Shown here: positions 5,713 to 26,088 of the stretch, piece after piece
Layout: every line of letters starts with the position of its first letter
How positions within the stretch are numbered: the first letter of the stretch is position 1
Origin: a virus
DNA: 26,715 nucleotides
IMG/VR virus record: IMGVR_UViG_3300009374_000496
Span: 1-26,715 of that record
Strand: one strand, 5' to 3'
Program-made: the position numbers and the translations under genes
The notes under the pieces: model-generated
The model's database searches: none
Told to the model about the DNA's origin: nothing
The model's input: the letters and a program-made list of their open reading frames with translations, nothing else

Positions 5713-5942
5713 TGGAAGATACAAAACCAGAAATTGAAGAACAAGAATATATTATTGAAATAGCTGTACAAATACTTTATACAGGGGAAAAAGTTCCTGA
5801 TAAAGCCTATGTGATTAATCCAATAGAAGAATTTATAAGTAACAGGTTAGATAAATTCAAACATGCGTATAAGTTGCAACGCACAAAAGTAACCATTGAT
5901 GAAATGGAATATGAAGATGAAGAGAGTGATGAAATAATTTGA
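5712..5942 (+). CDS. Hypothetical acidic protein before terL
   Basis: This 76-residue protein has very acidic ends (EDTKPEIEEQEY at the start and EYEDEESDEII at the end) and a more basic centre (NRLDKFKHAYKLQRTKVT). No family is recognised. It overlaps the previous gene by one base and the TTG start of terL by four bases (TTGA), which suggests coupled expression with the large terminase. Confidence 0.65.
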   Translation: MEDTKPEIEEQEYIIEIAVQILYTGEKVPDKAYVINPIEEFISNRLDKFKHAYKLQRTKVTIDEMEYEDEESDEII

Positions 5943-8401
5943 GCAAATTAGTACTTCCAGATGAAACCATTGAACAAATGCCATCTGCAGAAATTGTAAA
6001 AATTGCTCTTGCAGAAGAAAGTCTTTTGGAGTTTATCAAGCAAGCATGGCACATCCTAGAACCAACTACAAAATTTCAAACAGGTTGGCATTTAGAAGCT
6101 ATATGTGATCACTTAGAAGCAGCTACTAAGAGACAGATAAGAAATTTAATCATTAATATGCCTCCAAGACATATGAAAGGATGTGCGGATGAAACTTTTG
6201 TTTTGACACCTAATGGTTGGACAACACATGGACAATTATGTATAGGGGATTATGTATATCATCCATCAGGAAAGTCTGTGATGGTAACAAACGTATCTGA
6301 AAAATTTGACACAGATATTGTTATAGAATTAACAAATGGTGAAAAAATAAAATGTAATGGTGAGCATCTTTGGACTGTTTACAATAGAAGCACAAGAAAA
6401 TGGGAAACAAGAGAAACTAATGATCTCATTAATAAAAAAGTATGGTCTTCAAATAGAGCAGTTTTTCAATTACCTGAAACATCTTGCATAGATTTTGAAG
6501 AGAAGGAATTATTACTTCATCCTTATTTTATTGGTGCTTGGTTAGGTGATGGAACTTCTACAGCACCAGTAATAACTCATGATTTGTATGATGTAGAACA
6601 TATTAGAAAAATAGAGTCTGTTGGATACAAAGTAACTAAAAAAATTCGGCAGAATGGTAATTCAACTCGTTCTTGTTTTACAAAACAAAATATTATACAG
6701 ACAATAAGAAAACTTAATTTGTATAATAATAAACATATACCTAGTGATTATAAATATTCTTCTAAAGAACAGCGTTTAGAGTTAATGGCAGGTTTAATAG
6801 ATACAGATGGACATGTTTCACAAAATGGAAGAATTAGGATATGTACATCTTATAAGAAATTACGTGATGATATTATAGAAGTAGCAGAATCATTAGGATG
6901 GAAACCTTATATATGTGAATCAGAATCTTCTGGATATGAACAATATGGTGATAATAAACCACATTATCAAATTGGATTTAATGCATCATGTGATATACCA
7001 TTAGCTATAAAAAGAAAGAAAGAACGATTAAAAACTAATCATTTAAGAAGAAAAATTGGTATAAAATCAATTACTAAAAGTAAAAATCCAGAACAAGGTA
7101 ATTGTATAACAGTTGATAGTGAAGATGGATTATATTTGGTTGGTGAAACACTTATTCCAACTCATAATTCACTTGCGGTGTCTGTTTTTTGGCCTTGTTG
7201 GGTATGGCTTAATGATCCTTCTTCTAGATGGTTGTTTTCTTCTTATGCACAAGAATTATCTACTAGAGATAGTTTGAAATGTAGAAGATTACTTTCTTCT
7301 GAATGGTATACTAAGAGATGGGGTCATAAATTTCATCTTACTGGTGATCAAAACCAAAAAACACGTTTCGAAAATGATAAGACAGGTTACAGGCTTGCAA
7401 CGTCTGTTAGCGGATTAGTAACAGGTGAGGGTGGAGACTTTATAGTTTGTGACGATCCTCATAACGTAAAACAAGCAGAATCAGATGCAGTCAGAAAAGG
7501 TACGTTACGTTGGTGGGATGAATCAATGTCTACCAGAGGTAATAATCCTAAAACAGTTGTTAAAGTTGTTGATATGCAGAGATTGCATGAAGCTGATTTA
7601 ACAGGTCACTGGTTAGAAAAGAGTAAGGAAGATGTGGTTCATTTAATTCTCCCTGCAAGATTCGAAAAAGAAAATAAATGTGTAACTGTTATTGGTTTTG
7701 AAGACCCAAGAACAGAGGAGGGAGAACCTCTCTGGAAAAATCTTTATGATGAAGAAGCATTGACAGCTTTAGAAAAAGATTTGGGTTCAGAATATGCGAT
7801 AGCAGGACAGTTACAACAAAGACCATCACCTAGAGGTGGTGGATTATTTGCAGTTGATAATTTTAATTACATAGATCACATAGCTCCCTCAGAGATAGTA
7901 AGAACAGTTAGGTATTGGGATAAAGGTGGAACAGATGATCCTAACAATGCTTTAACTGGTGGTTGTAAAATGCATAAGATGAAAAATAATTCTTATATAG
8001 TTGAGCATGTAGTTTCTGGTTTATGGAAAGCTCCTAAACGAGAAGAGATGATTAAAAGAGTTGCTGAGAATGATGGCAGAGGAGTTACGATTGGAATTGA
8101 GCAAGAGCCGGGGTCTGGAGGGCTAGAATCTGCAGATAGCACAGTAAAAAATCTTGCAGGATTCTCAGTTAAAAAAGATAAAGTAACAGGTGATAAAGTT
8201 ACAAGAGCAGAACCTTATGCAACACAAATAGAAATAGGAAATGTATATTTGTTAAAAGGTGCATGGAATGCAGACTTTGTAAAACAGCATGAATTATTTC
8301 CTATGGGACTGAGAAAAGATTTGGTAGATTGCTCTAGTGGGGCATTTAATTTATTAACAGGAAAAGGTAGAGCAGGAACTTGGGGCGGTAAGAAGAAATA
8401 A
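5939..8401 (+). CDS. terL: Terminase large subunit precursor containing an intein
   Basis: This is the ATPase and nuclease motor that pumps DNA into the prohead and cuts it. The precursor has 820 residues, and removing the 329-residue intein gives a 491-residue mature TerL. The N-extein ends in NMPPRHMKG and the C-extein resumes SLAVSVFWPCW, so the insertion interrupts the Walker A loop. Walker B is GGDFIVCDD with Asp505-Asp506 (176-177 after splicing). The TRGNNP...DMQRLHEADL coupling segment follows. The C-terminal nuclease domain begins around RYWDKGG with Asp661 (332 spliced). The chosen start is TTG at 5939, which overlaps the upstream stop. The first ATG, 13 codons later, is the alternative. 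Packaging ability presumably depends on correct protein splicing. Confidence 0.93.
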   Translation: MSKLVLPDETIEQMPSAEIVKIALAEESLLEFIKQAWHILEPTTKFQTGWHLEAICDHLEAATKRQIRNLIINMPPRHMKGCADETFVLTPNGWTTHGQLCIGDYVYHPSGKSVMVTNVSEKFDTDIVIELTNGEKIKCNGEHLWTVYNRSTRKWETRETNDLINKKVWSSNRAVFQLPETSCIDFEEKELLLHPYFIGAWLGDGTSTAPVITHDLYDVEHIRKIESVGYKVTKKIRQNGNSTRSCFTKQNIIQTIRKLNLYNNKHIPSDYKYSSKEQRLELMAGLIDTDGHVSQNGRIRICTSYKKLRDDIIEVAESLGWKPYICESESSGYEQYGDNKPHYQIGFNASCDIPLAIKRKKERLKTNHLRRKIGIKSITKSKNPEQGNCITVDSEDGLYLVGETLIPTHNSLAVSVFWPCWVWLNDPSSRWLFSSYAQELSTRDSLKCRRLLSSEWYTKRWGHKFHLTGDQNQKTRFENDKTGYRLATSVSGLVTGEGGDFIVCDDPHNVKQAESDAVRKGTLRWWDESMSTRGNNPKTVVKVVDMQRLHEADLTGHWLEKSKEDVVHLILPARFEKENKCVTVIGFEDPRTEEGEPLWKNLYDEEALTALEKDLGSEYAIAGQLQQRPSPRGGGLFAVDNFNYIDHIAPSEIVRTVRYWDKGGTDDPNNALTGGCKMHKMKNNSYIVEHVVSGLWKAPKREEMIKRVAENDGRGVTIGIEQEPGSGGLESADSTVKNLAGFSVKKDKVTGDKVTRAEPYATQIEIGNVYLLKGAWNADFVKQHELFPMGLRKDLVDCSSGAFNLLTGKGRAGTWGGKKK
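6182..7168 (+). mobile_element. In-frame intein with LAGLIDADG homing endonuclease in TerL
   Basis: This 329-residue element excises itself from TerL and its endonuclease copies it into empty alleles. The splicing residues are intact: Cys1 in CADETFVLTPNGW (block A), IGDYV at 21-25, block B GEHLW with His62, the C-terminal LYLVGETLIPTHN with penultimate His328 and Asn329, and Ser as the +1 nucleophile. The endonuclease has both DOD motifs, YFIGAWLGDG at 115-124 (Asp123) and MAGLIDTDG at 202-210 (Asp207). Nothing looks degraded, so both splicing and homing are probably active. The site is the conserved P-loop of the ATPase, a typical choice because the target stays conserved among phages. Confidence 0.94.
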
Positions 8402-16943: not shown

Positions 16944-17719
16944 ACGAGAGAAGTAAACAAATAAGAAGAGACACAATAAAGTTAAGTAAAGCAAATGGAG
17001 GATACCATTTTGGTGGATCATTTTCTTGTGTAGAAATACTGATAGCATTATATGATGAAGTGTTGGATCAATTTGATAAATTTATAATGAGCAAAGGACA
17101 CGCTTGTTATCCTTATTATGTATTACTTAGAGAACATGGATTGAATCCTAAATTAGAAGGACATCCAAAACGTGATCCTCATAATGGAGTACAATGTACT
17201 ACAGGAAGCATGGGGCATGGATTACCTACTGCGGTGGGAATAGCAATGGCTAAGAAGATAAAAGGTGAAAAAGGAAAAGTATATGTTCTTATGGGAGATG
17301 GAGAGTGTCAGGAAGGAACTACTTGGGAGAGTATGTTGATAGCAGGGAGACACAAGTTAGATAACTTGGTGGTTATAGTAGATTGGAATAAGATACAGGG
17401 GTCAGGGAGAACAAATGATGTATTACCTTTGGGACTTAATGATGATTCTATAACAGAGATAGCTAGACATTTAAATTGGAGAACTAGTAATATAGACGGA
17501 CACAATATAGACGATTTAAGAGCAACAACTAGTGCAGATTTAAAAGGACATCCTTATATGATTATAGCAAACACTATCAAAGGCAAGGGAGTCTCTTTCA
17601 TGGAGGACAAACCTGAATGGCATGCTAAGTGGCTAGATGATAAACATGAAGCAATAGCCATGAGAGAATTAGGAAGTAATAATATTAATGAAGCAGAAGG
17701 GTGGCAGGGCTTCGCATGA
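16937..17719 (+). CDS. Transketolase N-terminal (thiamine pyrophosphate-binding) subunit
   Basis: Transketolases move two-carbon ketol units between sugars using thiamine pyrophosphate. This 260-residue protein is the PP domain. It has GGYHFGGSFSCVEILIALYDE at the start, MSKGHA near 51-56 and TGSMGHGLP near 89-97. The cofactor motif is GDGE at 120-123, and Asn151 ends it in VDWN. Two starts are possible: GTG at 16931 is only two bases from GGAGG, whereas TTG at 16937 has an eight-base spacer and is preferred. The pyrimidine-binding partner is encoded separately at 19764. A stand-alone PP half in a sugar cluster suggests a specialised two-carbon transfer rather than the pentose pathway. Confidence 0.9.
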   Translation: MLNERSKQIRRDTIKLSKANGGYHFGGSFSCVEILIALYDEVLDQFDKFIMSKGHACYPYYVLLREHGLNPKLEGHPKRDPHNGVQCTTGSMGHGLPTAVGIAMAKKIKGEKGKVYVLMGDGECQEGTTWESMLIAGRHKLDNLVVIVDWNKIQGSGRTNDVLPLGLNDDSITEIARHLNWRTSNIDGHNIDDLRATTSADLKGHPYMIIANTIKGKGVSFMEDKPEWHAKWLDDKHEAIAMRELGSNNINEAEGWQGFA

Positions 17720-18438
17720 TATTTGTGCCAACACTACCACAATCAGGAACTTGGTTTGTTTTAAGACTTCTAGAGAAGTGTGGTTATAGTTTAGAGTTTA
17801 CTGGTGATGTTGTACTTAATAAAAAGATAATCGAAGATAAAAGTAAAGTAGCTTTGTCTACTCACATATTTCCTTTCTATTATCAAGCTTCTCCTTTTAA
17901 GGAAGTGATTCCTCATTACGGAACTCATGCTACTACTGACTATGTAGTTAAGCAATATCATATGGGAATGGCAGGAATAGAGTTGTTAACAAGACTTCAC
18001 AAAACTATTATTCCTATTCGTGATCCACTGGCTTGTATTCTAACAAGAGAAGCTAGAGCACCACAATTAAGACACTTCTATATTATAGATGGATTCTTAG
18101 AAGTGATAAAAAGATATGAGGATAATCCTAACGTCTTTTTCTTCCCTGTTGATAGATATAATACAGTAGAAGATAGGGGATACTTAGTTAAACATGTCCT
18201 AAATTGTTGTGATATTGATATAAATAAATACAGAGATGAGATTGATAATTATATAGTTGATTGGAAAAAAGTAAATTCTGCAGAGAATAGGTTCAGAGAA
18301 CCATACGAAAATGGGGACATAGATAAAATAAAAGATATGCTCAAAGAGAAATGGGCAGAAGTAGAATACTTAAAAATTCATGGTGGTACGATATGGCCTT
18401 TTTTAAATAGATTAGGCTACACAGATAAATTGTGGTAA
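17716..18438 (+). CDS. P-loop sulfotransferase-like protein 1
   Basis: Sulfotransferases move sulfate from PAPS to sugar hydroxyls or proteins. In this 240-residue protein the N-terminal strand-loop FVPTLPQSGTWFVLRLLE matches the 5'-phosphosulfate loop (PxSGTxW near 8-13). The IPIRDPLACILTREAR segment resembles the 3'-phosphate site (RDP...). The C-terminal region is helical. The ATG at 17716 overlaps the transketolase TGA by three bases. A GTG at 17701 is possible but has no better ribosome site. It is a paralogue of the gene at 20948. Substrate and true sulfate donor are unknown, and some relatives are only P-loop look-alikes. Confidence 0.72.
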   Translation: MIFVPTLPQSGTWFVLRLLEKCGYSLEFTGDVVLNKKIIEDKSKVALSTHIFPFYYQASPFKEVIPHYGTHATTDYVVKQYHMGMAGIELLTRLHKTIIPIRDPLACILTREARAPQLRHFYIIDGFLEVIKRYEDNPNVFFFPVDRYNTVEDRGYLVKHVLNCCDIDINKYRDEIDNYIVDWKKVNSAENRFREPYENGDIDKIKDMLKEKWAEVEYLKIHGGTIWPFLNRLGYTDKLW

Positions 18439-19256
18439 GAAAGAAATTATTAGTATACAGGAAATGGTGTGGTTTAGGTGATTGGATAATGGCATTGACT
18501 GTCTTAAAAATGTTCAATCAACAGTTTCCAGATATTGATATCTATGTGAATTTAAAAGGTAAAAGTAATTTTGCAGCAGAATATGTTTCTCAAAGATTAC
18601 CAGACCTTATAATAGATATTATAGAGAATTTTGATGTCAAGATAAAAGGTTATACTTTCTATGATAAACCAGAAGAACATAGAAAGAGTTATGATTATAT
18701 AAGTGGTCATATGCACTATACAAGAGATGGGACTCCCTTTATAGAAGATATGGTAAGCAATCTTGCTCACATGACAGGATTACCTTTAGAATATAAGGAC
18801 ACAGTTTTTGCGCATCATGGAAAGAGTTTTGTTCCTAAAAATCCTGCTCCTTATGTTCTGATACAGTCGTGTAGTAAGAGAAGAGAAAAAGGTAGAAAAG
18901 GAAAAGATTATGGTTTCAATAATATGACTGTAATCTCTAGAATGCTTTCTGCAAAGATAAATGTGATACAGATAGGACAGGAAACTGATTGGTTTCTGCC
19001 AAATGTAGCAAGAGCACTGTCACTCAATTTAACTACGTTACATGAGTTAATGATGAACTGTTGGTGCTTTATAGGGATGGATGGTGGATTAGGTGTTTAT
19101 GCTTCGCATCATAAGATTAAGCAATTTATTATTTACGAAGAAGCAGAGAGATTTGGTTGGACAGATTTTCCTAACAGAACTCAGTTAGATGGAAGTGTTT
19201 TAAAACCAGAAGAAATTGGAGAAATTATTTGCGAAGAGCTGGCATATACAAAATAA
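18432..19256 (+). CDS. GT9-like (heptosyltransferase-type) glycosyltransferase
   Basis: This 274-residue protein has the GT-B layout of ADP-heptose transferases. GLGDWIMALTVLKMFNQQFP near 14-33 is the N-terminal GxGD loop. A central APYVLIQSCSKRREKGRKG opens the donor domain, and LHELMMNCWCFIGMDGGLGVYAS near 217-239 is the C-terminal donor-site motif. It should transfer a sugar to a glycan acceptor. The GTG start at 18432 overlaps the previous stop by seven bases and has no clear Shine-Dalgarno. Its last 28 bases overlap the GIY-YIG gene. The final residues AYTK plus the stop codon are encoded by DNA of the GIY-YIG domain, so its original C-terminus seems to have been replaced. Confidence 0.8.
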   Translation: MVRKKLLVYRKWCGLGDWIMALTVLKMFNQQFPDIDIYVNLKGKSNFAAEYVSQRLPDLIIDIIENFDVKIKGYTFYDKPEEHRKSYDYISGHMHYTRDGTPFIEDMVSNLAHMTGLPLEYKDTVFAHHGKSFVPKNPAPYVLIQSCSKRREKGRKGKDYGFNNMTVISRMLSAKINVIQIGQETDWFLPNVARALSLNLTTLHELMMNCWCFIGMDGGLGVYASHHKIKQFIIYEEAERFGWTDFPNRTQLDGSVLKPEEIGEIICEELAYTK

Positions 19257-19771
19257 CAAATATTCACAATGGTAAATCTTATATAGGAAGTGCTGTAAAT
19301 TTATATGCTAGAAAGCATATCCATTTCAGTACTTTAAAAACTAATAAACATAAAAATAGACATCTTCAAAATGCTTATAATAAATATGGTAAAGAAGCTT
19401 TTGAATTTAAAATTCTCTTATATTGTGATAAAGAAAATCTAATATTTTATGAGCAAAGAGCCTTAGATAGATATGATAATCTTTATAATCTAAAACTTAT
19501 TGCAGGGAGTAATTTAGGAGTAAAGTATTCAGAAGAATCTAAGAAGAGGATGTCGATGGTTCAAAAGGGTTTGAATAAAACATTATCGGAAGAACATAAA
19601 AATATCTTAAGAAATAGAAAAATATCTAAAGAAACAAGAGAAAGGATGTCTTTAGCTAATAAAGGCGGTAAAGGTTTTACAGGGAAGCATTCAGAAGAAA
19701 CAAAAAAGAAAATGTCAGAAACACATAAAAAACGATGGGAAACAAGGAGATTGGAGGCGGTTTATGCGTAG
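19229..19771 (+). CDS. GIY-YIG homing endonuclease with NUMOD3 repeats, copy 1
   Basis: This is a site-specific DNA endonuclease of the I-TevI/Seg type. GIYKIT (5-10), SYIG (17-20), catalytic Arg28 and Glu75 form the nuclease domain. LGVKYSEESKKRMS and later KHSEETKKKMSETHKK units are NUMOD3 DNA-binding repeats. The start is a TTG with GGAG seven bases upstream, inside the end of the GT9 gene. Its first four residues (MRRA) are identical to the first four of the next gene, the transketolase C subunit. That gene's start lies in the last bases of this one behind GGAGG. The endonuclease thus appears to use the transketolase gene's original start. Confidence 0.9.
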   Translation: MRRAGIYKITNIHNGKSYIGSAVNLYARKHIHFSTLKTNKHKNRHLQNAYNKYGKEAFEFKILLYCDKENLIFYEQRALDRYDNLYNLKLIAGSNLGVKYSEESKKRMSMVQKGLNKTLSEEHKNILRNRKISKETRERMSLANKGGKGFTGKHSEETKKKMSETHKKRWETRRLEAVYA

Positions 19772-20246
19772 GGCATTCGGAAAAACAATTTGCAAGTTAG
19801 CTGAAAAAGATAAAAACATTGTCTTATTAACAGGTGACGTAGAACAGGAAATGGATGAATATAAAGAAAGATTTCCTGACAGATATTTTAACTTAGGACT
19901 TACTGAACAAAGTATGATTAGTATTTCTGCAGGAATGGCTATGGAAGGTTTAAGACCTGTAGTGTATTCTATAACACCTTTCTTAATTGAAAGACCATTT
20001 GAGCAGATTAAGATTGATATAGATGAACAAAAGTTACCAGTTATGTTAGTAGGTAATAGTGATTACCCAACACATGGAGCTACTCACAGACCACTTAACG
20101 CAGAGGGGTTGGTGGCACTGTTTAAAAATATACATGGTTATTTTCCTAGAAATATGCAAGAAACAGAAAAAGCAATGTTGGATGCGTACTTAATGGGTGA
20201 ACCTTCGATCATCTGTTTGAAGAAAGATGGGTTGCCGATATTATAA
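19764..20246 (+). CDS. Transketolase pyrimidine-binding subunit, short form
   Basis: This 160-residue protein completes the transketolase active site with the subunit at 16937. RRAFGKTICKLAEKDKNIVLLTGDV opens the Pyr domain. YFNLGLTEQSM contains Glu48, the residue that activates the thiazolium cofactor, and GMAMEGLRPVVYSITPFL, EQIKIDI and HGATHR follow. Usual C-subunits have about 300 residues with a transketolase C-domain, and here the protein ends after the Pyr domain. GGAGG lies six bases before ATG inside the GIY-YIG gene. About 2 kb of other genes separate it from its partner, which is unusual because the two halves are normally adjacent. Confidence 0.88.
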   Translation: MRRAFGKTICKLAEKDKNIVLLTGDVEQEMDEYKERFPDRYFNLGLTEQSMISISAGMAMEGLRPVVYSITPFLIERPFEQIKIDIDEQKLPVMLVGNSDYPTHGATHRPLNAEGLVALFKNIHGYFPRNMQETEKAMLDAYLMGEPSIICLKKDGLPIL

Positions 20247-20947
20247 AAAAGAACGTACTAATTACTGGAGCCTCTAGGGGACTAGGAAAAGCATTAGCAG
20301 AAGCTTTTGCTGAACATGATTACAATCTTATTCTTCATAGTAGACAGAATGAATTGCCTTGTGTAAGAAAGTCTTTTAATTTTACTAGAGAACATACAAA
20401 AGATTACCATGTTGAATGTGAAACTGTCAAAGGTGATATTAAAGAAACAGCTACTGTAGAAAAACTAAAAAAGAAATCTGACGAAATGGGTGGTTTAGAT
20501 GTTCTTATTGTTAATGCAGGAATTCATAAGAGTGCAGGAATAGATGATGTTGGTTCTGCAGAGTATAAAAATATGATAGACACTAATTTAACTGCTCCTA
20601 TGGTGTTGACTAAAGAACTTTGGAAACAAGTGAAGAAGAGAAATGGATTAATTCTCTTTGTAAATAGTATAGCAGGAAAAGTTGGTGCTGATAGAGAGTT
20701 TATGTATTGCGCATCAAAACATGGCTTAAAAGGTTTTGCAGATTCAATACAATTTGATGCAACAAGAGCAGGAATAAAGGTAGTAAGTGTTTATCTTGGA
20801 GCATTTAAATCAGATATATCAAGACATAGAAAAGATTACGATAAATTAATGGAACCAGATGATGCAGCTAACTTCATATATCACGTATGTAAAGATTACG
20901 AAAGTATGAGAGTAACAGAGGTAGATGTCTGCAGGAGAATATACTAA
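20243..20947 (+). CDS. Short-chain dehydrogenase/reductase with no canonical start codon
   Basis: This NAD(P)-dependent reductase (about 234 residues) carries VLITGASRGLGKALAEAFAEH at the N-terminus (TGxxxGxG cofactor loop), VLIVNAGIH, the catalytic Ser in FVNSIAG and the YCASK catalytic Tyr-Lys. The frame extends upstream of the first ATG/GTG/TTG (TTG at 20354), which would delete the cofactor site. In the expected place the codons are ATT (20240) and ATA (20243), directly at the transketolase stop. An ancestral ATGA overlap changed by one base to ATAA would give exactly this sequence. It either starts at a rare ATT/ATA codon or is losing expression. The rest of the gene is intact. Confidence 0.8.
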   Translation: MKKNVLITGASRGLGKALAEAFAEHDYNLILHSRQNELPCVRKSFNFTREHTKDYHVECETVKGDIKETATVEKLKKKSDEMGGLDVLIVNAGIHKSAGIDDVGSAEYKNMIDTNLTAPMVLTKELWKQVKKRNGLILFVNSIAGKVGADREFMYCASKHGLKGFADSIQFDATRAGIKVVSVYLGAFKSDISRHRKDYDKLMEPDDAANFIYHVCKDYESMRVTEVDVCRRIY

Positions 20948-21637
20948 TTGGATATAAATAAGATATTGTTTTTACCTTCTGTACAACATACAGGAACATG
21001 GTTTGTATTAAGCATACTAGAAAAATTTGGATATAATATAGTTGATTCTAAGAGATTGTTAGAAGGTGGTGTAAATATCAATGATCCTTCTACTATACAA
21101 ACTCATTTTCCAATAGAATCTTCTTATCAAACACCATTTGAATTAGATAAATGGATGGGTGTAAATAGTATACAGGTACTGTCTAAAATATTTAAGACAG
21201 TAATTCCTATTCGTGATCCACTAGCAGCTATTCTTACAAGAGAAGCTAGGCATCCTGAATTGAGACATTTTTATATAGTAGATGGTTATGTAAATATGGC
21301 AGAGAAAATGGCAGGGAACTCTAACGTAATGTTTTTTCCTATTGATCTTAATCCTGATCCAAATGCTAGGAGAGCACTTATTCAGAAGTTGTTAGATCAC
21401 TGTGATATTAAAGGAGAGACTGCTACAATAAATTCACTTGCTAACACTTGGACTGTTAAGAATGATACACCAAATAATAGATTCAAAGAAGCGTATAAAG
21501 AAAAGAATAAAGAGGAATTAATTTTTTTATTAGGTTCCAAAGTGGCAGAGCTAAATTATTTACAAAATAAAGCTTCTGTTATATTGCCTTTTATGGGTGC
21601 TTTGGGATACACTAAGGAGGACTTAGATTTATGGTAA
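20948..21637 (+). CDS. P-loop sulfotransferase-like protein 2
   Basis: This 229-residue paralogue of the protein at 17716 shares the loop xxTGTWFVLSILEKFGY and the block IPIRDPLAAILTREARHPELRHFYIVDG. The active-site lysine/serine position of the loop reads QHTGTW here against PQSGTW in copy 1. The start is TTG at 20948, immediately after the SDR stop, with AGGAG ten bases before it. The C-terminal parts have diverged (KNDTPNNRFKEAY against SAENRFREPY). Two copies in one island suggest modification of two positions or two acceptors, if both are active. Confidence 0.72.
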   Translation: MDINKILFLPSVQHTGTWFVLSILEKFGYNIVDSKRLLEGGVNINDPSTIQTHFPIESSYQTPFELDKWMGVNSIQVLSKIFKTVIPIRDPLAAILTREARHPELRHFYIVDGYVNMAEKMAGNSNVMFFPIDLNPDPNARRALIQKLLDHCDIKGETATINSLANTWTVKNDTPNNRFKEAYKEKNKEELIFLLGSKVAELNYLQNKASVILPFMGALGYTKEDLDLW

Positions 21638-23268
21638 CCATTCCATGTTTATGCGGAAATAATTCTGGAGAGAGAGTAGGAAAGAGAGCTTATGAAGTCA
21701 CACCAGAAGGTGTTACTCAAGAGTCAGACACACTTGATTTAATGTTTGTCAAATGTGACAATTGTGGAATAGTTAGGCAATTTGTAGATTTCAGTGAGAA
21801 AAAACAATATGAAAAATTTTATAAGAATTATCCACCAACTACTAATTTATATGGGGCTAAAGATTATGGACATGATTTGGCGGTTGCTGAGAAAAGGTTA
21901 AAGTCTTATGAGTTAAAAACTGATCAAAAATTATTAGATGTTGGTTCTGGTAGTGGGGCATTTGTTGATGTTTGTAGGGCAGAAGGAATAGAAGCTTACG
22001 GATGTGAATTAGCTGAATATGATTGCTCAGTAGATGATACTTATATCTATAAGAAAGATTTACTTGATATACACTTTCCTACAGACTATTTTGATACTGT
22101 GACTTGTCATGATGTGTTGGAACATGTTATTGATCCTAGAGAATTTTTACAGGAGATGTTCAGAATAACTAAGCAAGAGGGGAAGTGTATAATTGATTTC
22201 CCTAATTTCTTTGATGAAGAAGGGAAGCATCACTGGAAAGAAGAACATATTTGGTATTTAAATCATGATCAACTAGAAATACTGTTTGATGAAGTTGGTT
22301 TTGAGTTTAAGAAAATACAGACTCCTATAAGGTCTAAAATAGTTTACACCATAGTAAAACCAAAACAAGAGAGGGTGACTGTGCTTGTTCCACCCGGTAT
22401 GGGTGATGCATATTGGTCAATAGTTAAAGTACAATCCTTTATGGAAAGTATAGGTAGGGGTGGAGAGGTTGTAGATGTATCAGTAGCTTGTAATGTAGAT
22501 AGACAATACAATGGACATAAAAGAGCATTTCCATTTATAGAATTGTTCCCATTTTTAAATTCTACAGGTGAGACTTTTAATACAGATAAGTACCCAAAAG
22601 AGATATGGTTAGAAGCTTACAGAGATGCAGGAAGAACAATTTTTGAAGGGATTTGTGATCGTGATTATTTCTTATCTTGGAATGGACAATTAGGAAATGG
22701 TAATGATCTAGAGAAGGTTGATCCAGAAATAAAATGTAACTGGATTCCTCCAATGTTTGAATCATTGGAACAAATGAATTATGAAAAGGAAGCAAAGGAA
22801 AAGTACGGTAAGTATATTATATTCTACTTCTTATTTCATGGTCATTATAATAGGTGGCAAGAAGAGTTTAACAAGAAGCAGATGGAAAATTCTGTGAATT
22901 TGATATGCAAGCAGACAGGATGTAAAGCAGTATTTGTAGGAGCAGAATGGGATAAAAATTTCCAAGATCAGAGTGATGTGATAGGAAAACTTCCAGATGC
23001 AATTGATTTAAGAGGTGAGACATCTACACAAGAACTTTTCGGATTGATAAATGGAAGCGAGGTAGTTGTAGGGTATCCATCAGGGTTAACTATAATGTCT
23101 ACAGTTCTGAAACAGAAAACAATAATTATCTGGAATGATTATTATAATAAAGATTTTATGTGGAATAGCTGTCCTCCAGAAGTAAGGGAGAAAACTTATT
23201 TTGTTGAAAACACTAAGAATCTTACACCTAAGAAATTAACACAAAAAGTGAAGGAGATTATAAAATGA
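21631..23268 (+). CDS. Fusion of a zinc-finger class I methyltransferase with a GT9-like glycosyltransferase
   Basis: This 545-residue protein has two parts. Residues about 1-250 have a cysteine cluster (PCLCGN and CDNCG), as in C-methyltransferase-type N-domains. The SAM-binding LLDVGSGSGAFVDVC comes next, then VTCHDVLEHVIDP and a C-terminal IDFPNF motif, as in sugar methyltransferases. Residues about 250-545 begin VTVLVPPGMGDAYWSIVKV, the GxGD loop of GT9 transferases, and end with LFGLINGSEVVVGYPSGLTIMS, a donor-site motif. It could methylate and transfer one sugar in sequence. AAGGAGG lies ten bases before ATG, and the start overlaps the previous stop. The domain boundary near 250 is approximate. 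Confidence 0.8.
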   Translation: MVTIPCLCGNNSGERVGKRAYEVTPEGVTQESDTLDLMFVKCDNCGIVRQFVDFSEKKQYEKFYKNYPPTTNLYGAKDYGHDLAVAEKRLKSYELKTDQKLLDVGSGSGAFVDVCRAEGIEAYGCELAEYDCSVDDTYIYKKDLLDIHFPTDYFDTVTCHDVLEHVIDPREFLQEMFRITKQEGKCIIDFPNFFDEEGKHHWKEEHIWYLNHDQLEILFDEVGFEFKKIQTPIRSKIVYTIVKPKQERVTVLVPPGMGDAYWSIVKVQSFMESIGRGGEVVDVSVACNVDRQYNGHKRAFPFIELFPFLNSTGETFNTDKYPKEIWLEAYRDAGRTIFEGICDRDYFLSWNGQLGNGNDLEKVDPEIKCNWIPPMFESLEQMNYEKEAKEKYGKYIIFYFLFHGHYNRWQEEFNKKQMENSVNLICKQTGCKAVFVGAEWDKNFQDQSDVIGKLPDAIDLRGETSTQELFGLINGSEVVVGYPSGLTIMSTVLKQKTIIIWNDYYNKDFMWNSCPPEVREKTYFVENTKNLTPKKLTQKVKEIIK

Positions 23269-23969
23269 GAAATCCTATATTGCTTACTGGAACTGGTATA
23301 TATAAAATAGTAAATAGGTTAACAGGGAAGATTTATATAGGAAGTGCTGTTAACTTAAGTGAAAGATGGAGATTGCATAAACATCATCTAGATAATAAAA
23401 CCCATAGAAACAGGTATCTGCAAAACGCATGGGATAAATATGGTGAATTTATGTTCTCATTTGAGCCTTTGATTAATTGTGAGAAAGAAGATTTGTTAGA
23501 TTTTGAACAAGATGCTTTAGATGCTTATCAATCATATGACAGAGAAATTGGCTACAATATAAATCATTTAGCAACAAATTCTCTAGGTGTCAAACGATCT
23601 GATGAAACTAAAAAGAAAATTAGTGAGTCAGGAAAAGGCAGAATACCTTGGAATAAAGGATTGACTAAAGATGATCCTAGAGTAAAAAAATATGCTGATA
23701 AAAATAAGAATAGAATTGTTACAGAAGAGCAACGAGAAAAAATAAGGAAAACTCTCACTGGTTATAAACATACTGAGGAAGCAAAAAAGAATATGTCAGG
23801 AAGGGAGTTGTCAGACGAACATAAGAAAGCAATTTCTAATTATATGACAGGAAAAAAGCATACGTTAGGAAGAAAACATACTGACGAATGGAAACAAGAA
23901 GCCAAGATAAGAATGTCAAAGAGAAAAAGAGATTCTAAGGGCAGAATGATGAAAGGGGTTATACAATGA
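23265..23969 (+). CDS. GIY-YIG homing endonuclease with NUMOD3 repeats, copy 2
   Basis: This 234-residue endonuclease has GIYKIV at 11-16, YIG at 24-26, Arg34 and Glu81. NUMOD3-type units follow (GVKRSDETKKKISESGKGR, ELSDEHKKAISNYMTG and others) and a basic tail. GGAG and an ATGA overlap couple it to the methyltransferase-GT9 gene. Its first ten residues, MRNPILLTGT, precede the nuclease domain. They match the beta strand and P-loop entry of the next protein (MKSGILISGC), so it seems to be translated from the sulfotransferase gene's old start. Its own 3' end carries AAAGGGG and the ATGA for the downstream gene. Confidence 0.9.
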   Translation: MRNPILLTGTGIYKIVNRLTGKIYIGSAVNLSERWRLHKHHLDNKTHRNRYLQNAWDKYGEFMFSFEPLINCEKEDLLDFEQDALDAYQSYDREIGYNINHLATNSLGVKRSDETKKKISESGKGRIPWNKGLTKDDPRVKKYADKNKNRIVTEEQREKIRKTLTGYKHTEEAKKNMSGRELSDEHKKAISNYMTGKKHTLGRKHTDEWKQEAKIRMSKRKRDSKGRMMKGVIQ

Positions 23970-24688
23970 AGTCAGGAATCTTAATTTCGGGGTGTGCAAG
24001 GTCAGGAACCTCAATGACTGCAGGAGTTATAGATATTTGTGGGGCAAAGGGTGGTCAGACAAGTCCTGCAACTATATACAACAAGAAAGGAATGTTTGAG
24101 AATGCTGATATCAGAAATAATCTGGTTAAGCCTCTTCTTCAAACTCTAGGAGTTGATCCTATGGCGCAGCATCCTTTACCAGATGTAAATCTATTCAAAG
24201 ATTTAGATGGTGAAGAATGGAAAAGAAAAGTGGAAGACACTCTTAGATATCAAGGTGTAGGTGAGAATGATGATTGGTACTATAAAGGTGCAAAGATGTG
24301 TTTAATGTGGCCTTTATGGAATGCAGCATTTCCTGATGCTAAATGGATCATAGTCAGGAGAAGAAGTAAAGAGATAGTAAATTCCTGTATGAGAACAGGT
24401 TTCATGAGAGCTTTTGATACAGAACAAGGTTGGCAAGGATGGATTCACCAACACATAAATAGATTTAATGAGATGTTACAGGCTGATTTAGACCTCAGAG
24501 AAGTATGGCCTCAAGAAATGATTGATGGACAATTTAGTGAGGTAAAATCAGTAGTTGAATGGCTAGACTTGGAATGGAAAGAAAATGAAGTTAAAGAATT
24601 TGTAGCACCCTCATTATGGAATGAAGGAAAAACAATCGTCAATGACAAACTTGTAGCACAAGCATTTGACGAAGGAAGGTTAGGATAA
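23966..24688 (+). CDS. P-loop sulfotransferase-like protein 3
   Basis: This 240-residue protein belongs to a different subgroup from the two paralogues above. ILISGCARSGTSMTAGVI near 5-22 is a P-loop sulfotransferase-type phosphate loop, and FPDAKWIIVRRRSKEIVNSCMRTGFM, in the middle, resembles the 3'-phosphate-binding segment. The C-terminal helical region contains many Trp residues. The ATG overlaps the GIY-YIG stop (ATGA). Similar proteins are common in phage carbohydrate islands, where substrates are unknown. The intact loop suggests that the copied start after homing-gene insertion keeps the protein functional. Confidence 0.78.
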   Translation: MKSGILISGCARSGTSMTAGVIDICGAKGGQTSPATIYNKKGMFENADIRNNLVKPLLQTLGVDPMAQHPLPDVNLFKDLDGEEWKRKVEDTLRYQGVGENDDWYYKGAKMCLMWPLWNAAFPDAKWIIVRRRSKEIVNSCMRTGFMRAFDTEQGWQGWIHQHINRFNEMLQADLDLREVWPQEMIDGQFSEVKSVVEWLDLEWKENEVKEFVAPSLWNEGKTIVNDKLVAQAFDEGRLG

Positions 24689-24689
24689 T

Positions 24690-25325
24690 ATGGCAAGAGT
24701 GACAAGTGGAATATACCAAATATCATGTAAAATTAATGGTAAACGGTATATAGGGAGTTCCAAAAATGTCTTTACGAGAAAGACTGTACATTTTAGAGAA
24801 CTTAAAAATTCCATACATTCTAATAGACTTCTTCAAAATGCTTTTAATAAGCATGGGGAAGAGAACTTTGAATTCAAAGTTTTAGCGTTTTGTGAACCAG
24901 ACTTTCTAATAGAGCAAGAGCAAAGATTTCTAGATTTTTGTAAAACTTATGAAAGAGGTATTGGTTATAATCTACACAAGAAAGCTGATTCTCCAATAGG
25001 TGTTAAACGATCTCAGGAATTTAAAGATAAGTTATCTAAAACAAATACTGGAAGAAAACATACTGAGGAATCTAAAAGAAAGATGTCTGAAATACATAAG
25101 AAGTTAGTTATCTCAGATGAAACGAGAAGAAAAATTACAGAATCTAAGAAAGGAACAAAACTATCTAAAGCACACAAAGAGAAAATAAGTAAAGCTTTGA
25201 GAGGAAGAGATACGAGAAAAGAAGGTTCTTCTTCCGATAGGACTTGTTCAGAAGAAACACGTAAAAAATTGTCAGAGGCTACCAGAAAAAGTTGGTTAAA
25301 GGCTTCTAGAAGGGAGAAGAGCTAA
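24690..25325 (+). CDS. GIY-YIG homing endonuclease with NUMOD3 repeats, copy 3
   Basis: This 211-residue endonuclease has GIYQIS at 7-12, YIG at 20-22, Arg30 and Glu77. At least four NUMOD3-type repeats follow (GVKRSQEFKDKLS, KHTEESKRKMSE, ISDETRRKITES, LSKAHKEKISKALRG) and a basic end. GGAAGG precedes the ATG. The first five residues MARVT equal the first five of the following head connector protein, whose ATG overlaps this gene's stop (TAATG). It marks the border between the carbohydrate island and the structural genes. Confidence 0.9.
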   Translation: MARVTSGIYQISCKINGKRYIGSSKNVFTRKTVHFRELKNSIHSNRLLQNAFNKHGEENFEFKVLAFCEPDFLIEQEQRFLDFCKTYERGIGYNLHKKADSPIGVKRSQEFKDKLSKTNTGRKHTEESKRKMSEIHKKLVISDETRRKITESKKGTKLSKAHKEKISKALRGRDTRKEGSSSDRTCSEETRKKLSEATRKSWLKASRREKS

Positions 25326-25711
25326 TGGCTCGTGTCACAGATAGTGAGGTGGCAGCAATACTTGATACTGATGTTAGCAGTTTTACTCCATTTATAACTG
25401 CAGCTAATACATTAGTAACTACAGTATTATCTACACCTGCAAAAATAACAAACACTACATTGTTAAAAGAGATAGAGAGATGGTTAGCAGCACATTTTTT
25501 CAAATGTAGTTTAGAGCCACAAGAGAAAGTACAAGAAGTAGGAGAAACAAAATCTACATTCTTTGGTGCTTCAAATGAGACACTATTAAATTCTACTCTC
25601 TATGGACAAACAGCATTGGCTTTAGATACATCAGGATCGTTAGCAAATTTAGGAAAGAGAATAGGGAGATTTAAACCAATTCTAGCAATTAGCAGAGCAG
25701 AGGATGCATAA
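25325..25711 (+). CDS. Head-tail connector (adaptor) protein
   Basis: This 128-residue protein is probably the gp6/gp15-like adaptor that docks under the portal ring. It is helical: TDSEVAAILDTDVSSFTPFITAANTLV at the start, then LLKEIERWLAAHFFKC near 46-61, the usual helix of this family, and a C-terminal KRIGRFKPILAISRAED. Position after the head genes and before a stopper-like gene supports the call. GGGAG inside the preceding endonuclease gene is its ribosome site. The first codons duplicate those at the endonuclease start. Confidence 0.8.
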   Translation: MARVTDSEVAAILDTDVSSFTPFITAANTLVTTVLSTPAKITNTTLLKEIERWLAAHFFKCSLEPQEKVQEVGETKSTFFGASNETLLNSTLYGQTALALDTSGSLANLGKRIGRFKPILAISRAEDA

Positions 25712-26088
25712 TGACATCATTTTTAAACAGAGGACACAATCAAACATTAGTCTATTGGGCTTTCTCAGCTAGAGATGGTTTTGGTGGAGCTACCTTTTCA
25801 GCACCAGTTGAGATAAGTGGTAGATGGGAAATTAGACAGAAGATGTTTACTACTGCAGCAGGTCAGAAATTAGAAAGTAGCAACATAGCATACGTAGGAC
25901 AGGATGTAGAACCTAATGATTGGTTATTCTTAGGGTCATTAACTGACATAGCTTCTGCTATAGATGAAACTAATCCTAAAAATGTGACAGGTGCTTTAGA
26001 AGTGAAAGCAAGAACTAAAATACCAACATTAAGAGCAGATAAGTTTCAAAGGATAGTCTTTATGACAGAAGCAACATCTACGAGGTAA
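25711..26088 (+). CDS. Head closure (stopper-like) protein
   Basis: This 125-residue beta-rich protein has an N-terminal NRGHNQTLVYWAFSARDGFGGATFSAPVEISGRWE (segments near 6-40). The layout of a Q-x-VYWA strand, a D-GFG loop and an RWE strand is seen in phage head-closure or minor capsid proteins. The second half has DWLFLGSL and KIPTLRADKFQRIVFM. It lies between the adaptor and a gp10-like protein, the usual stopper place. The ATG overlaps the previous TAA. No direct family name is certain. Confidence 0.72.
   Translation: MTSFLNRGHNQTLVYWAFSARDGFGGATFSAPVEISGRWEIRQKMFTTAAGQKLESSNIAYVGQDVEPNDWLFLGSLTDIASAIDETNPKNVTGALEVKARTKIPTLRADKFQRIVFMTEATSTR

Follow-up and report, generated by a model that had tools for sequence, protein, structure and literature searches.

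The T4 seg genes (segA, segF and segG) are, in the part of PMC2988022 that deals with them, described as intergenic, several of them overlapping the upstream gene. Fungal mitochondria harbour elements named mORFs, reported for atp6 of Allomyces macrogynus and for atp6, atp9, cox2 and nad3 of Glomus, which carry replacement C-termini while the native ends are displaced, the Glomus atp9 case using a GIY-YIG enzyme (PMC3630166). For the mitochondrial "introns with N-terminal duplication" of Tremella fuciformis, the relevant passages of PMC7315562 propose a cycle of gain and loss in which a foreign fragment leaves a substituted segment. Here we describe a 26.7-kb IMG/VR virus fragment (IMGVR_UViG_3300009374_000496; all 26,715 nucleotides are called the window) in which three homing endonuclease genes (HEG1, HEG2 and HEG3) of the GIY-YIG/NUMOD3 type sit at the starts of genes for a transketolase subunit, a sulfotransferase and a connector-like protein (Table 1). 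Sequence comparison indicates that they very probably lie within the coding sequence of their probable targets, a few codons past the start, having captured that start and left the target with a recoded replacement.

All three genes score above the cut-off for PF01541 and PF07460, a GIY-YIG catalytic domain with a C-terminal NUMOD3, and belong to TIGR01453 (94-108 bits, cut-off 56), HEG1 being about 45% identical to HEG2 and HEG3. The first-pass annotation had claimed that each begins with the N-terminus of the downstream gene followed at once by the GIY motif, and its coordinates and frames hold. The leaders are MRRA, MRNPILLTGT and MARVT(S), each leading directly into GIY, and the next genes start with MRRA, MKSGILISGC and MARVT, at -5, -1 and +2 nt from the respective endonuclease stop. 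The new ribosome sites are found, as had been noted, in the last endonuclease codons, with GGAGG before the transketolase start and weaker GA-rich sites before the other two. After the methionine, the HEG1 leader and the transketolase start are identical in 3/3 residues (RRA/RRA), all 3 recoded, and the HEG3 leader and the connector start in 4/4 (ARVT/ARVT), 3 of them recoded. In the three proteins the alignment to TIGR01453 opens at GIY with profile positions 1-3, the 10-residue HEG2 leader falling outside it; since the profile begins at GIY, the leader residues lie outside the endonuclease family.

The connector gene has matches at 75-100% identity in 14 viral contigs. In those without an endonuclease gene at the connector (surveyed loci L012, L013 and L014-L016) nothing separates the sulfotransferase stop from ATGGCACGTGTGACAGATGCAGAGG or a variant of it (pattern ATGGCxCGTGTGACAGATGCAGAGG, or variant), giving the N-terminus MARVTDAEV, and the left side of the window tracks these alleles through MARVT and then changes to AGT-GGA-ATA-TAC. 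In the HEG-free L098 and L099 (93%) a related glycosyltransferase-like gene continues into ATGAGAAGAGCATTCGGG, and ten relatives have the N-terminus MRR[AQT]FG, HEG-free relatives showing MRRAFG for the transketolase subunit. HEG-free relatives of the sulfotransferase carry the N-terminus MKSPILITGCARSGTS. PILITG[AC]ARSGTS or a close variant stands at the N-terminus of 12 near HEG-free relatives and of nearly all of a broader set of 78 loci, in which a GIY-YIG gene at the N-terminus was found in the query contig only; HEG-free N-termini of this family amount to about 85 loci in all, the 12 near ones and about 75 at greater distance. Since HEG-free alleles carry the leader residues at the target start, the residues before GIY belong to the target, as the first-pass annotation had expected of empty alleles, and the insertion points fall inside the target coding sequences, after codons 4, 10 and 5 for HEG1, HEG2 and HEG3, respectively. 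Searches of phages for the target genes gave no matches, apart from distant Haloarcula virus relatives in one.

These features can be joined in a mechanism whose molecular steps are deduced from sequence. The enzyme would recognise conserved codons at a gene end, such as the P-loop of the sulfotransferase, and the cut would be repaired on a diverged allele that carries the HEG, which would import the endonuclease gene and, as one block, a substitute for the sequence on one side of the cut, the native end staying in place. The native upstream flank, ribosome site, start codon and first 4-10 target codons have stayed put and now open the endonuclease in frame before GIY; the remainder of the target lies downstream and is headed by another copy of that end, for the most part synonymously recoded, with its ribosome site in the final endonuclease codons. 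Since these enzymes open with GIY, they should accept additional residues at the N-terminus, and the endonuclease can then be expressed from the start of its target. Once split and recoded, the site would be immune to the enzyme, translation of the target would be coupled to the endonuclease stop, and later loss of the endonuclease gene would leave a recoded 5' end, at times with a short scar. A mirror form retains the native 3' end as the tail of the endonuclease. It had been proposed earlier that the enzyme takes over the original start and itself regenerates a substitute 5' end. The anatomy and the HEG-free alleles speak for the takeover, with the position of the cut and the homing event as probable elements; the replacement 5' end, however, appears to be acquired as one block, together with a diverged allele or out of it, rather than to be regenerated by the enzyme.

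Our survey took in 266 distinct GIY-YIG genes from loci of viruses, genomes and cultured phages, of which 213 had both a leader start and an open reading frame (ORF) downstream; N-anchored and local scores between leader and next gene were compared with those of shuffled neighbours. An N-anchored score of at least 25 was reached by 3 real pairs (null mean 0.03) and a local score of at least 30 by 6 (null mean 0.28), one of the six, L245, being really a 3' case. The excess of matches over shuffled neighbours anticipated in the first-pass annotation was thus found, five unrelated contigs included. Start capture occurs in about 8 of the 213 genes (~4%), namely the three in the window and five in unrelated phage contigs. 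The next start lies within -10 to +10 nt of the endonuclease stop in 8/8 capturing genes, against 90/208 others. L025 and L261 concern other sulfotransferases: the former is entered after ARS, with 10/10 identical residues in PILITGAARS and 9 recoded, and the latter after ARSGTS (SLRPPIFVTGTARSGTS). L302 has captured the start of a head-tail connector (MTLRIITPPAV); the HEG-free L498 shares the left flank, GCAGAACATGACCTTG, and the native flank and native-like codons are kept by the upstream copy, not by the downstream one. L141 and L074 are the remaining two. In a tree of the endonucleases (97 columns, poor resolution) the capturing genes do not form one clade but are scattered among many non-capturing relatives, and one supported group contains both 5' and 3' capturers.

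The sulfotransferase P-loop is occupied by three different GIY-YIG genes at three nearby positions (window 23966, L025 2387 and L261 5956), which suggests that this conserved P-loop of viral sulfotransferases is a homing hotspot. Among the 20 cultured-phage loci scored no clear capture was seen. In one cultured phage, Acinetobacter phage phiAB441 (L404, 1468-2557), a GIY-YIG gene lies between fragments annotated as DNA polymerase, a possible split-gene case.

A mirror form was also found, in which the tail of the endonuclease is the C-terminus of the upstream gene. In L008 (4604-5999, and the same in L009-L011) a GIY-YIG gene is placed close to where the same sulfotransferase gene ends on its 3' side; the last residues of the sulfotransferase are a replacement, KIVVNNRIVGVCHE followed by a stop, and those of the endonuclease are the native-like TIVNDKLIAKAFDEGRIG, likewise before its stop. 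L275 has captured 35 C-terminal residues (score 92-110), and L204 and L237 are probable 3' captures. L245, which the scoring had initially listed among the 5' matches, is on reading a 3' case whose C-terminal remnant has been displaced: at about 6880-7910 the end of an ATPase gene (DVQITIDNIDGYACVKI, then stop) precedes the GIY-YIG gene, and a 64-residue remnant of the same C-terminus (beginning IFILDEPATALDEEN) lies downstream. Since 3' captures occur alongside 5' captures, the rule is that the gene inserts close to one end of a coding sequence, be it the 5' or the 3' end. The 3' captures also bear on the suggestion that the captured end is kept chiefly as a regulatory half-site, for autorepression as by I-TevI at its own promoter, and is not a by-product of insertion. 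The native half of the presumed site does sit at the start of the endonuclease gene, and I-TevI, according to the pertinent part of PMC2988022, represses itself at an operator resembling its homing site just upstream of its own ORF; a 3' capture, however, places the half-site at the wrong end. We regard such a primary role as unlikely, even if it is compatible with insertion by end capture and both could hold.

The relatives of the window genes are too diverged for a foreign-tract test on the window genes themselves. Near-identical sister contigs, L012/L120 and L013/L119 (L013 4161-6345), carry footprints of the kind that end capture would leave. L012 and L013 are ~99% identical around these genes, apart from three short tracts with mostly synonymous recoding: sulfotransferase codons 1-29, where direct comparison gave 12/87 nt changed and 0 amino-acid changes; sulfotransferase codons 213-218, beside the site of the L008 type; and connector codons 1-22. 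Differences amount to 30/171 in these tracts against 21/2014 elsewhere (Fisher test, p about 1e-21, the tract limits having been chosen after inspecting the data, though they fall at endonuclease sites). Moreover, L012 and L008 have 35 extra bp at the sulfotransferase start. In L012 these form a mini-ORF, MKKETLITGVLI with its stop (a near copy is present in L008), in which the native TTAATCACAGG is preserved and which overlaps with the new ATG; it is apparently a captured start that remained after deletion of the endonuclease gene, with such a loss as its probable origin. Because the ribosome site of the target lies in the last endonuclease codons, a clean deletion would be impossible without keeping that stretch, and the scar fits this. 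With HEG-free, occupied and scarred alleles at hand, native, occupied and apparently vacated states coexist in one clade.

A simpler history would be a tandem duplication, the 5' end being doubled before the endonuclease gene landed between the copies, or upon its insertion, with recoding by later drift. Two copies of one end flanking the gene fit this by structure alone, and the captured and replacement copies are similar. However, the sharp borders of the recoded L012/L013 tract, between flanks that are nearly identical, point to en-bloc replacement rather than drift, and in L302 only the upstream copy has the native flank and native-like codons, so that we hold duplication to be improbable. 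As to an origin of the replacement end in another lineage by horizontal transfer, the comparison gave en-bloc recoding between sister contigs and no donor allele.

That the endonucleases are merely intergenic, as the T4 seg genes, and share N-termini with their neighbours by chance or as endonuclease-family sequence is very improbable. Most surveyed GIY-YIG genes do have unrelated short leaders such as MxS-GIY, and MARVT and MRRA are short. Nevertheless the chance per gene with shuffled neighbours was 1.2% for HEG1 and 0.28% each for HEG2 and HEG3, jointly about 1e-7, and matches of 10-17 residues recur across unrelated contigs. These tests and the HEG-free alleles, in which the leader residues stand at the target start, rule out chance identity, and the profile starting at GIY rules out family sequence. 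The earlier statement that three of three in the window exceeds chance therefore stands for these genes, but not for the family as a whole, and universality of start capture among GIY-YIG genes is rejected. Degenerate group I introns, with the endonuclease as an intron ORF fused in frame to the 5' exon, are almost certainly not the explanation: in fungal mitochondria, fusion of an intron ORF to the exon before it is common, and the three genes do match a group I intron endonuclease family (TIGR01453), but no self-splicing intron surrounds them by Rfam (no group I match in window 18000-26000, even at E<=1), the stop overlaps or abuts the next start and leaves no space for intron RNA, and splicing would duplicate the N-terminus, which the downstream gene has complete.

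Several observations weigh against insertion by start capture. About 96% of the surveyed GIY-YIG genes show no capture, which is thus not the usual placement of the family. The leaders of HEG1 and HEG3 have only 4-5 residues, and that of HEG2 agrees with its own downstream copy in only 3/9 residues after the methionine (RNPILLTGT/KSGILISGC; 4/10 with it), being closer to the native sulfotransferase family (MKNPIIITGC, MKSPILITGC) than to that copy. To these may be added the post hoc tract limits of the Fisher test, the weak resemblance (10/15) between the last 15 nt of the scar and the end of HEG2, and the indirect link of the scar to endonuclease loss.

Compared with the systems described above, the genes in the window resemble mORFs in being homing endonuclease ORFs inside a coding sequence near its end, with a mostly synonymously diverged replacement and the native end displaced past the ORF. 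Unlike the mitochondrial mORFs, which replace C-termini, they occur in a phage, the replaced part in the window is the N-terminus, the replacement has a ribosome site of its own and is found downstream, and the captured target start serves as the start of the endonuclease. The phage 3' captures L275 and L008 are a direct parallel. A displaced native end with a mainly synonymous replacement was found both at 5' ends and at 3' ends (L275, L008), although HEG2 and L275 have many amino-acid differences too. The L012/L013 footprints match the cycle outlined for Tremella in PMC7315562; there the element has a duplicated fragment at its 5' end, after the upstream exon and resembling the following exon, some elements are spliced or read through, and the passages concerned describe no capture of a start codon. 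With the T4 seg genes the phage genes share intron-less GIY-YIG enzymes adjoining or overlapping their neighbours, several targeting the adjacent gene and some using overlapping starts and stops; the seg part of PMC2988022 gives no account of genes starting with a target N-terminus or of a duplicated, recoded target end. HEG1-3 likewise have no surrounding intron, but they do not lie between intact genes. The ShiLan insertion, in the portion of PMC11855218 devoted to it, is also an in-frame homing-type insertion in a phage coding sequence, that of a methylase, is neither a recognised intron nor an intein, and is not linked there to captured gene ends or a second start. In the open-access literature (subscription papers lay outside the search) we found no report of the start-capturing form, nor of either form in phages.

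Table 1. Endonuclease genes, captured ends and probable target genes in the window
Feature	Position	Strand	Evidence
Glycosyltransferase-like gene upstream of HEG1, its frame running on into HEG1	18432..19256	+	Sequence; L098 homologue runs into the transketolase gene
HEG1, GIY-YIG/NUMOD3, starting with TTG; insertion at codon 4/5 of the gene for the transketolase C-subunit	19229..19771	+	Sequence, Pfam, TIGR01453
Transketolase gene, native 5' end as captured (MRRA), start of HEG1; GIY from 19241	19229..19240	+	L098/L099 empty alleles read MRRAFGKT
Transketolase pyrimidine-domain subunit (target gene 1); its replacement start, recoded, occupies 19764-19775 within the end of HEG1, GGAGG within HEG1 codons	19764..20246	+	
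HEG2, GIY-YIG/NUMOD3, inserted at codon 10/11 of the sulfotransferase gene, before the P-loop ARSGTS	23265..23969	+	Sequence, Pfam, TIGR01453
Sulfotransferase gene, native 5' end as captured (MRNPILLTGT)	23265..23294	+	Relatives start M[KE][SN]PI[LI]ITG[CV]ARSGTS or close variants
Sulfotransferase (target gene 2); its replacement start MKSGILISGC occupies 23966-23995 and overlaps the HEG2 stop in ATGA	23966..24688	+	
HEG3, GIY-YIG/NUMOD3, inserted at codon 5/6 of the connector gene	24690..25325	+	Sequence, Pfam, TIGR01453
Connector gene, native 5' end as captured (MARVT, ATGGCAAGAGTGACA), directly continuing the native flank upstream	24690..24704	+	Empty alleles L012, L013, L014-L016
Connector-like protein (target gene 3); its replacement start, recoded (ATGGCTCGTGTCACA), occupies 25325-25339, junction TAATG	25325..25711	+	

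Because the reading frame of the glycosyltransferase-like gene continues into HEG1, its last residues, AYTK, derive from the insertion. Other elements were seen in the window and its relatives. The gene for the large subunit of terminase (5939-8401) is apparently interrupted by an intein at roughly 6180-7170 (about residues 82-411), after MPPRHMKG and ending THN-S, where intein-like stretches of other PHROG families match. A radical-SAM gene of L008 (727-2739) has a long insert with intein-like ends (CYVEDTEVFTDEG to VRRNGKAVWSSN) that is absent from L013 (1742-2710). The genes at 17701-18438 and 20948-21637 of the window are paralogous, with the common pattern GTWFVLxxLEKxGY...IPIRDPLAxILTREAR, and belong to a block of sugar/transferase genes between the capsid and connector genes.

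The principle has precedents in fungal mitochondria (PMC3630166, PMC7315562), and what is new would seem to be the start-capturing form in phages. We judge the chances to be evenly balanced that end capture is a distinct and recurrent homing strategy of phages, in which intron-less endonuclease genes occupy conserved coding ends, employ the start (or stop) of the target itself, and the target is kept alive by a recoded end. It would show in what way selfish DNA that has no intron can settle at a conserved coding site and leave the host gene functional, a niche usually credited to introns and inteins, and would account for in-frame fusions of gene starts with endonucleases and for the short "hypervariable" tracts of synonymous changes that near-identical phages can show at gene ends. 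A sharp prediction follows, namely cutting of the native end by the enzyme but not of the recoded end, and it implies that automated annotation will misassign captured N-termini to endonucleases. If true, repeated gain and loss would locally recode the ends of essential genes across phage populations.

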